A DNA stretch of 64,000 nt from Geobacter sp. DSM 9736 (GTDB lineage Bacteria; Desulfobacterota; Desulfuromonadia; Geobacterales; Geobacteraceae). The DNA lies in contig NZ_LT896716.1 of assembly GCF_900187405.1 (NCBI RefSeq), positions 1,736,001-1,800,000 of the forward strand, given 5' to 3'. This document shows positions 50,120 through 53,561 of this stretch, piece after piece; within the stretch, counting starts at the first letter, position 1; each line of letters starts with the position of its first letter. The notes under the pieces are model-generated. The model made no database searches. It was not told the origin of the DNA and saw nothing but the letters and a program-made list of their open reading frames with translations. A program made the position numbers and the translations under genes.

Positions 50120-51079
50120 ATGAAACGAATCGGCATACTGACCAGCGGGGGTGACTGTTCCGGCATGAACGCCACCATCCGCAGCGCCATGCGCACCGCC
50201 CTCGGAAAAGGGGTCGAGATGCTCGCCTACCGCAAGGGTTTTCTCGGCCTGATCAAGAATGACCACTTCCTGATGGACAACCGTTCCGTCTCCGGGATCC
50301 TCCAACGGGGGGGCACCTTCCTCCAGTCGGCCCGCTGCGAAGAGTTCAAGCTGGAGACGGGGCGGCAGAAAGCCCTTGCCAACCTTCACGAAGCAGGTGT
50401 CGAAGGGCTCGTGGTGATCGGAGGAGACGGCTCGCTCAAAGGCGCCCTGACCCTACATGGTATGGGCTTTCCGGTGATAGGAATCCCCGCCAGCATCGAC
50501 AATGACATCCCCTTCACCGACATGTCGCTCGGTGTCGATACCGCCCTCAATAACATCATCTACGCCGTGGACTGCATCAAGGACACCGCCAGCTCACACG
50601 CCCGCGCATTCGTCATCGAGGTCATGGGCCGGAATTCGGGCTATCTCGCGAGCGTCAGCGCCATCGCCTGCGGAGCCGAGTACGCCATAGTCCCGGAGGT
50701 GCAGTTCGACCTCTCCGACATCTGCGCGCACCTTCGCCACCGTTTTCAGGAGGGACGGGACAACGCCATCATCATCGTTGCGGAAGGGGCAGGAGAGGCC
50801 AAGACCATCGCCGACGCCATCAAGGACGCCATCGGGTTCGAGACACGGGTCACCGTACTCGGCCACTACCAGCGGGGAGGGGCTCCCTCGGTCTTCGACC
50901 GGCTCCTGGGGAGCCGCCTCGGAAAACGGGCGGTGGAACTGCTCGTCGAGGGGGAATCGGGGAAAATGGTTGGGCTTTCCTGTCACAGCATCGTCGCAAC
51001 CCCTCTGGAAGAGGTTGTACGCTCCGCGAAAATGCCGCAGGAAGATATGCTGCGGCTGGCCGAAATGCTGGGAATCTGA
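50120..51079 (+). CDS. pfkA: 6-phosphofructokinase (ATP type)
   Basis: 319 residues. LTSGGDCSGMNATIR binds nucleotide; GGDGSLKG marks the ATP type (Gly at the position where PPi enzymes have Asp). The catalytic loop reads PASIDNDIPFTD, with Ala in place of the usual Gly before the Ser/Thr-Ile-Asp. EVMGRNSG and VLGHYQRGGAP follow. It commits fructose 6-phosphate to glycolysis. GGAGGAG lies upstream of the ATG. Confidence 0.93.
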   Translation: MKRIGILTSGGDCSGMNATIRSAMRTALGKGVEMLAYRKGFLGLIKNDHFLMDNRSVSGILQRGGTFLQSARCEEFKLETGRQKALANLHEAGVEGLVVIGGDGSLKGALTLHGMGFPVIGIPASIDNDIPFTDMSLGVDTALNNIIYAVDCIKDTASSHARAFVIEVMGRNSGYLASVSAIACGAEYAIVPEVQFDLSDICAHLRHRFQEGRDNAIIIVAEGAGEAKTIADAIKDAIGFETRVTVLGHYQRGGAPSVFDRLLGSRLGKRAVELLVEGESGKMVGLSCHSIVATPLEEVVRSAKMPQEDMLRLAEMLGI

Positions 51080-51090
51080 TTAAATTAAGA

Positions 51091-51122
51091 AACCGGGGCA
51101 GATTTACGACTCTGCCCCGGTT
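51091..51122. terminator. Strong hairpin shared by pfkA and the small minus-strand frame
   Basis: AACCGGGGCAGA and TCTGCCCCGGTT form a perfect 12-bp stem with an 8-base loop. On the minus strand it is followed by TCTTAATTTAA, on the plus strand by no T-run, so it better fits stopping a minus-strand transcript, though it may serve both. Confidence 0.65.
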
Positions 51123-51142
51123 CCGACTTCTCTTCAACCTTT

Positions 51143-51307
51143 TCAAGCCCCCGTGGGCTTGAGATGCTGCACAAACCACAGAACGGCCGCCTGCGAACAC
51201 TCCTCGAAACAGCCCCCGCATAGGCATCGAAATGCCCCCCCCTTGAACACCACGAGCTTCTTCGGCTCCTTCGCCTGCTAGACCTTCACTTCCCCCGCAG
51301 GGCCCAT
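51143..51307 (-). pseudogene. Small cysteine-rich frame with an in-frame TAG at codon 10
   Basis: An ATG at 51307 with an excellent GGAGGGG site four to five bases upstream opens MGPAGEVKV, then TAG (51278-51280), then 44 further codons before TGA at 51143. The downstream part, LVVFKGGAFRCLCGGCFEECS, has four cysteines (C-x-C-x2-C-x3-C) and continues as a Trp/Phe-rich amphipathic helix. A terminator-like hairpin follows the TGA. Possible readings: a gene broken by a nonsense mutation, a sequencing error, or a shorter gene starting at a GTG pair after AAGGAG (about 51250-51260). I do not recognise the family. Confidence 0.5.
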
Positions 51308-51381
51308 TGCCCCTCCGGCACCGACTGGTATAGTTAAGATAACGTCAACAACGATCAGTCGCCGCACGGCGGGAGGTATAC

Positions 51382-51636
51382 ATGCAGCGTGTGAGGTCAA
51401 AGTTCATCGTGGTTGAAGAGGCTGCCGCCTTCGAGAAGAGCCTCCTCGACAGAGGATTTCTTCACGTAGTCAAGGAAGATCCCGAAGAGCTTCATCCTAG
51501 AGAGTTCCTGAAGCTGCGGGCGACGCGCAAATCCCCTGAAGGAACGCTGCTTGCCAAGGGATTCACTTTTGTGTGGGTGGAAAAGGAGGTGCCGGAAGAA
51601 CCTCCGCATCTGGCGCCGAGGAATCATTCCAGATAA
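51382..51636 (+). CDS. Small conserved-looking hypothetical protein
   Basis: 84 residues, no signal or membrane segment, no cysteine. It is charged and reads like a small folded domain (RSKFIVVEEAAAFEKSLLDRGFLHVV, GFTFVWVEKEV). GGGAGGT four bases before the ATG supports translation. The function is unknown; it stands alone on the plus strand. Confidence 0.6.
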   Translation: MQRVRSKFIVVEEAAAFEKSLLDRGFLHVVKEDPEELHPREFLKLRATRKSPEGTLLAKGFTFVWVEKEVPEEPPHLAPRNHSR

Positions 51637-51671
51637 GAGTGCTTTTAGCCATGTACTGACTGGGACTGCAG

Positions 51672-53561
51672 CTATTCCCCCTGCTCCGGCTCTCTTCTGA
51701 GAACCGGAATGGTGAAGAAGAAGGTGGAGCCTTCTCCAGTTCTCGACTCCACCCACATGCGCCCGTGATGCCGTTCGACGATACGCTTGCAGAGGGCGAG
51801 GCCGATGCCGGTTCCCGGATATTCCTCCCGTGTGTGCAGCCGCTGAAAGATCAGGAATATCCGGTCGCTGTACTCCGGTTCGATGCCAATCCCGTCGTCA
51901 GATATCGCGAATACCCACTCGCTCCCCACCCTCTCCGTCGAAACATGCACCGTCGGCAGGGTATCGGGTTTCCTGAACTTGATGGCGTTGCCTATGAGGT
52001 TCTGAAGAAGCTGCGTCAACTGCAATTCGTCTCCGAAAATGTTGGGCAGGCCGGCATTCGTGACAGTGGCGCCGCTATCACGTATTGCTACGGTGAGATT
52101 GGTAACGACACTTTGAAAGACAGCATCCATTCTGACCAGTCTGAACTCGCCCCCTCCCGTTCCGATTCGGGAGTAAGCCAGCAGCCCTTCGATCAGCTTC
52201 TGCATGCGTTTCGCTCCATCCACCGCATACCCGATATATGTCATACCTTTTTCATCCAGATTTCCGCCGTAACGCTTCTCGAAGAGCTGCATGAAGCTTG
52301 CAACCATCCTCAACGGCTCCTGAAGGTCGTGTGACGCCACGTAGGCAAACTGCTCAAGCTCCCGGTTCGATCGCTGCACTTCAGCAAGGAGGCGCTCACG
52401 CTCTTCCTCCGCCCGTTTCCGGTCGGTGATGTCGACGTTCATCCCGATCCACTCCCGGACCGTCCCATCGGCGTGCAATACCGGGGCTGCCTGCACCGAC
52501 ATGTGCCGGTATTCTCCCGTGTGGTGAAGCATCCGGAACTCAACCCGGTAGGGACCGCCGGTGGCCACGGCAGTACCCCATGCCTCCGAAAGCCCCTTAC
52601 GATCATCCGGATGGACCACGTTCAGCCAGTTACGGCCTGCCCACTGCTCATAGGTACGGCCGGTGAAGGCGCGCCAGGAAGGTGAATCCTCTACCGCCTC
52701 ACCACTGGAGTCGGTCACCCAAACGATCTGGGACGAGACCTCCACGAGCCGCCGGAACCGCTCCTCGTTTATACGCAATGCATCTTCGACATTTTTCCGC
52801 TCGGTTATCTCGTTTTCAAGAGCGACGTAAGAGCGGCGCAACTTCTCGGACATGGAGTTGAACGCCGACACGAGGTCTGTGAACTCGTCCTCCCCCCTGT
52901 CTTCCAGACGATAATCGAGATCTCCCTCCCCGATCATTGCGGCCCCCCGGCTCAGCGAGCCGATACGTTTCATAATAATCCGAAGCATGGACCAGGAATT
53001 GAATCCCGCCACCACCGTTACGAGCACGAGCAGCCCCAGTATGCTCCAACTCGCATGCGTCATTTCGGCTGAGAGCCGTTTTCCTGCAGCATCCCGCAAT
53101 TCCCGGGCGTAGAAGGCTTTGTCGTAGACCCGCATGTCCAACAGGCGGATCAGCCTGCTCTCGGTTTCATCCGCAAGCTCCGTTGACCTGTCCCCCCCAG
53201 CTTTCTCACGATTGGCCACAATGGCGGAAAACAGCTTTACCACCGCCTCATGGTTCTGAATGATGTCATCGAGCAACTTTTTGTCGTGAGGATCGGTAAA
53301 CGTTGTGGATGCAGAGCTGAGAAGTTCTTCGATCTGCCTGCTCTTGGCAAACCACTGTGCCCGCGCCCGCTCATTGCCGGTCCGCAGATAATCTGTCCGC
53401 AGCGCGGTTCTCTCGAATGCAGTGATGATGATTTCACCGGCGAGTTCGGACTGGCGCCTTGCGGTGTTGACCCTGTTGAGCATGAAGATGACGATGATAC
53501 CGACGAACAACACCGTCAGGACCAGAACCGCAATGTTCACCAACAGTTTTCTTTTAAGCAT
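51672..53561 (-). CDS. Sensor histidine kinase with CHASE-like sensor, HAMP and PAS
   Basis: 629 residues. Two membrane helices (about 8-28 and 175-195) flank a mostly helical periplasmic domain of about 145 residues. HAMP (about 197-250), a PAS domain (about 270-385, ending REWIGMNVDITDRKRAEEE) and HisKA with His in YVASHDLQEPLRMVASFM follow; then HATPase_c (NLIGNAIKFRKP, DDGIGIEPEY, GTGIGLALCKRIVERHHG). No receiver or regulator gene is adjacent. It lies 18 bp after an orphan binding-protein gene, suggesting that the binding protein helps sense the ligand. Confidence 0.88.
   Translation of the reverse strand: MLKRKLLVNIAVLVLTVLFVGIIVIFMLNRVNTARRQSELAGEIIITAFERTALRTDYLRTGNERARAQWFAKSRQIEELLSSASTTFTDPHDKKLLDDIIQNHEAVVKLFSAIVANREKAGGDRSTELADETESRLIRLLDMRVYDKAFYARELRDAAGKRLSAEMTHASWSILGLLVLVTVVAGFNSWSMLRIIMKRIGSLSRGAAMIGEGDLDYRLEDRGEDEFTDLVSAFNSMSEKLRRSYVALENEITERKNVEDALRINEERFRRLVEVSSQIVWVTDSSGEAVEDSPSWRAFTGRTYEQWAGRNWLNVVHPDDRKGLSEAWGTAVATGGPYRVEFRMLHHTGEYRHMSVQAAPVLHADGTVREWIGMNVDITDRKRAEEERERLLAEVQRSNRELEQFAYVASHDLQEPLRMVASFMQLFEKRYGGNLDEKGMTYIGYAVDGAKRMQKLIEGLLAYSRIGTGGGEFRLVRMDAVFQSVVTNLTVAIRDSGATVTNAGLPNIFGDELQLTQLLQNLIGNAIKFRKPDTLPTVHVSTERVGSEWVFAISDDGIGIEPEYSDRIFLIFQRLHTREEYPGTGIGLALCKRIVERHHGRMWVESRTGEGSTFFFTIPVLRREPEQGE

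Follow-up and report, generated by a model that had tools for sequence, protein, structure and literature searches.

Within a 64,000-nucleotide stretch of contig NZ_LT896716.1 of Geobacter sp. DSM 9736 (hereafter the window), the pfk gene ends at position 51079 on the plus strand and an open reading frame (ORF) of 84 amino acids occupies positions 51382-51636 of the same strand. Between these two flanks, an initial annotation had placed a small cysteine-rich gene of about 54 codons interrupted by an in-frame TAG, without giving its strand. Such a frame is indeed present on the minus strand (51307-51143), the plus strand reading otherwise. It begins with an ATG and eight further codons (MGPAGEVKV, 51281-51307), preceded by a ribosome-binding-site-like GGAGG (51312-51316), meets the TAG at 51278-51280 and continues as QAKEPKKLVVFKGGAFRCLCGGCFEECSQAAVLWFVQHLKPTGA up to its terminal stop. 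The terminator-like hairpin reported after this stop was likewise recovered, as a 14-bp stem on the minus strand (51124-51089; z = -6.2 for the folding of 51170-51080). It belongs to a dispersed repeat of ~70-95 bp found in about five copies in the genome, 72-91% identical to the query copy and carrying a strong terminator hairpin, CCGGGGCAGA...TCTGCCCCGG. The copy at the locus (51087-51167, minus strand) is diverged, being 72% identical to the query copy, and overlaps the end of the frame. The other copies lie at G000:C1 1830281-1830346, 1831943-1832037, 1840022-1840117 and 2759032-2759102, three of them clustered within 10 kb, between unrelated genes. Rfam returned no match at the locus.

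Searching the peptide encoded after the TAG by tblastn against 7.3 Gb of plasmid sequences matched 24 records, with identities of 42-51% in the best rows. The annotated genes under these matches were alpha/beta hydrolases, aligned at their C-terminal end, and two unannotated matches (Streptantibioticus and Cupriavidus) read as the same hydrolase family. Conversely, an intact archaeal hydrolase from Haloterrigena, searched back on the Geobacter genome, returned to the same locus (48% identity, E 5.6e-4). A frameshift-tolerant alignment gave the locus a score of 96.6, where none of 391 other stretches taken from the window exceeded 37.6. Three independent Desulfobacterota homologs scored 105-112 with slips and 88-92 with slips forbidden, shuffled sequences remaining at or below 38. 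Tblastn and the frameshift-aware alignment delimited the homologous segment to 51161-51277 of the minus strand, starting at the codon that adjoins the TAG and covering the C-terminal ~40 residues of the hydrolase, from the region of the catalytic-histidine motif through the ...WF..HL end. The C-terminal homology expected of alpha/beta-hydrolase ancestry was therefore found, the conserved GGHF motif included.

The closest known system consists of uncharacterised alpha/beta hydrolases of ~300 amino acids (e.g. WP_012944945.1, WP_310819558.1 and those at loci L117-L120), which are matched by the Pfam models Peptidase_S15, Hydrolase_4 and Abhydrolase and of which intact representatives occur in some other Desulfobacterota families, the closest being only ~50% identical to the locus. 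Common to both is the C-terminal stretch x-A-x-EPK-x-LV...GGHFDAY...FE-x-x-S-x-A-A-x-x-WF-x-x-HL. The intact hydrolases have the whole fold, whereas the window keeps the tail only; a TAG immediately precedes this tail, in which the frame slips twice.

These slips also bear on the density of cysteines that had suggested a metal-binding peptide. Where the homologs have ...EPKKLV..KGGHFDAY...FE..S.AA..WF..HL, the initially annotated frame of the window gives EPKKLVVFKGGAFRCLCGGCFEECSQAAVLWFVQHL. The frameshift-aware alignment moves the frame by one at a run of eight G (51235-51242, minus strand) and returns it at or adjacent to five consecutive G (51213-51217, minus strand). Between them, frame 1 encodes the hydrolase motif GGHFDAYA (51217-51240, minus strand), given as GAFRCLCG in the annotated frame, so that in a three-frame reading GGHFDAYAG stands exactly over GGAFRCLCGG of frame 0. 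As RCLC overlies HFDAY one frame off, its cysteines are a product of the frame slip rather than of a metal-binding design. The cysteine pattern is not conserved in the homologs, HFDAY or similar standing where the window has FRCLC. Only the two remaining cysteines (GGCFEEC) lie within the hydrolase frame, at a variable part of the family. From these alignments, the cysteine-rich appearance comes mainly from reading the conserved GGHFDAY motif with a one-base shift, and the observation of a high cysteine density was thus partly an artefact. More generally, two frame slips that compensate each other within a gene relic can mimic a small cysteine-rich gene with an internal stop, and comparing the neighbouring frames with intact homologs exposes such mimicry.

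Upstream of the homologous segment, the coherent coding described on both sides of the TAG held for the downstream side, which is hydrolase-derived, but not for the upstream one. The nine codons before the TAG had no likeness to the hydrolase and no match in the family search, and no frame of 51278-51700 aligned with the hydrolase above shuffled sequences, so that roughly 85% of the hydrolase gene is missing. The GGAGG described as an ideal ribosome binding site is present and suggestive, but not rare: 57 of the 2017 ATGs of the window (2.8%) have a GGAGG or AGGAG at the same distance. The MGPAGEVKV stretch is probably open by chance, and these nine codons, their ATG included, would be adjoining sequence left open by accident, as would the Shine-Dalgarno-like GGAGG. 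The TAG itself may be a former hydrolase codon or the joint of a deletion.

The search of relatives proposed along with the initial annotation did not bring out a small gene of this kind. A protein search of the 48 genomes of the family matched only the Geobacter genome itself, and extension to the 277 genomes of the class added three marginal matches (E 0.006-0.008, 31-47% identity). The 54-residue read-through peptide gave nothing of value against Pfam and NCBIfam (zf-Paramyx-P at E 0.19), and a PDB search produced no match. With the peptide as query, no intact hydrolase homolog was found in the family to which Geobacter belongs. Matches to a Paraburkholderia hydrolase within this family were set aside as belonging to a remoter type (25-34% identity, in open frames some 360-435 amino acids long), and weak matches of the peptide elsewhere in its own genome (L002 and L003, E 0.2-0.8) offered no lead from their ORF lists.

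Taken together, the locus is very probably a non-functional 3' fragment, or pseudogene relic, of a ~300-residue serine hydrolase gene of the alpha/beta-hydrolase superfamily. Relative to intact homologs it is truncated by ~250 residues and bears two slips and the TAG, a combination of truncation with frameshift or stop that characterizes pseudogenes. No trace of the nucleophile serine motif or of the N-terminal fold was detected upstream in any frame, which points to a relic rather than to a functional enzyme. Instead of a real small gene of about 54 codons, the frame thus holds the C-terminal ~40 codons of a ~300-codon gene. The suggestion of a freshly broken gene was correct as to the break but not as to its freshness, given the ~85% loss, the two slips and the stop before the remnant. 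Counting against this reading are a composition by codon position that has stayed gene-like (GC3 0.76), the second slip, which brings back the original frame and is slightly unusual for pure decay, and the identity of only about 50% with the closest intact homolog.

Alternatively, the hydrolase tail may have been recruited as a new, small, cysteine-rich protein, produced by internal initiation beyond the TAG or by read-through of the TAG. The GGAGG ahead of the ATG, the hairpin after the stop and the frame open from the TAG to the stop are compatible with such a peptide, but we consider it highly improbable. Beyond the three marginal matches, the 277 class genomes contain no similar cysteine-rich peptide; the better matches are full-length hydrolases in which HFDAY or similar takes the place of the CLC segment; no promoter-like site was found upstream of the frame on the minus strand; and the hairpin belongs to a repeat that occurs about five times in the genome. 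Neither a shorter product initiated downstream of the TAG nor read-through of the TAG, both of which had been put forward, has any support: the pyrrolysine synthetase model matched the genome only below threshold (best 28.3 bits for a cut-off of 178.15), and similar sub-threshold matches occurred in nearly all control genomes. The narrower proposal, that paired G-run slips put the tail out of frame and so created a new short cysteine-rich protein from an internal start, is less probable still.

The position of the slips at or near G runs makes replication slippage a likely mutation mechanism. G runs are also the usual site of sequencing errors, and homopolymer errors may lie behind the slips. 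Yet that the slips and the TAG are all sequencing or assembly errors in a living gene is very hard to sustain, since no upstream frame contains the N-terminal ~250 residues of the hydrolase and correcting the errors would therefore still yield just a fragment. Hardly credible at all is a frame open by chance without any gene ancestry: its first nine codons match nothing and a GGAGG before an ATG is not rare, but the alignment scores stand far above controls and the matching to one protein family is reciprocal.

As a pseudogene relic, the locus would have arisen from a hydrolase gene acquired horizontally by the Geobacter lineage, whose 5' ~85% would then have been deleted and whose remaining tail would have drifted, the G-run slips being likely due to replication slippage. 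Prokaryotic pseudogenes from failed horizontal transfer are a known class (PMC522871), likewise truncated, frameshifted and belonging to genes absent from close relatives. The present case is the same in kind, except that just a short 3' tail remains. A relic of a known enzyme superfamily is an ordinary explanation. No hydrolase relics were found beside the four other copies of the terminator repeat.

The genomic context was compared across 80 named pfk loci, nearly all from Desulfuromonadia. On the other side of pfk, rarA was kept in 56 of them, and neither the hydrolase tail nor the 84-residue ORF adjoined pfk in any. The adjoining histidine kinase had only distant matches (31-37% identity at best), several kilobases off, in 15 of the 80 loci. 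By this comparison the relic segment is specific to the Geobacter lineage, which fits acquisition followed by decay. The 84-residue ORF belongs to no Pfam or NCBIfam family and had no relatives in the 277 class genomes or the plasmid collection. A sigma-70-like promoter for this ORF (TTGCCC-16-TATAGT with a TG, 51307-51334) overlaps the start of the relic.
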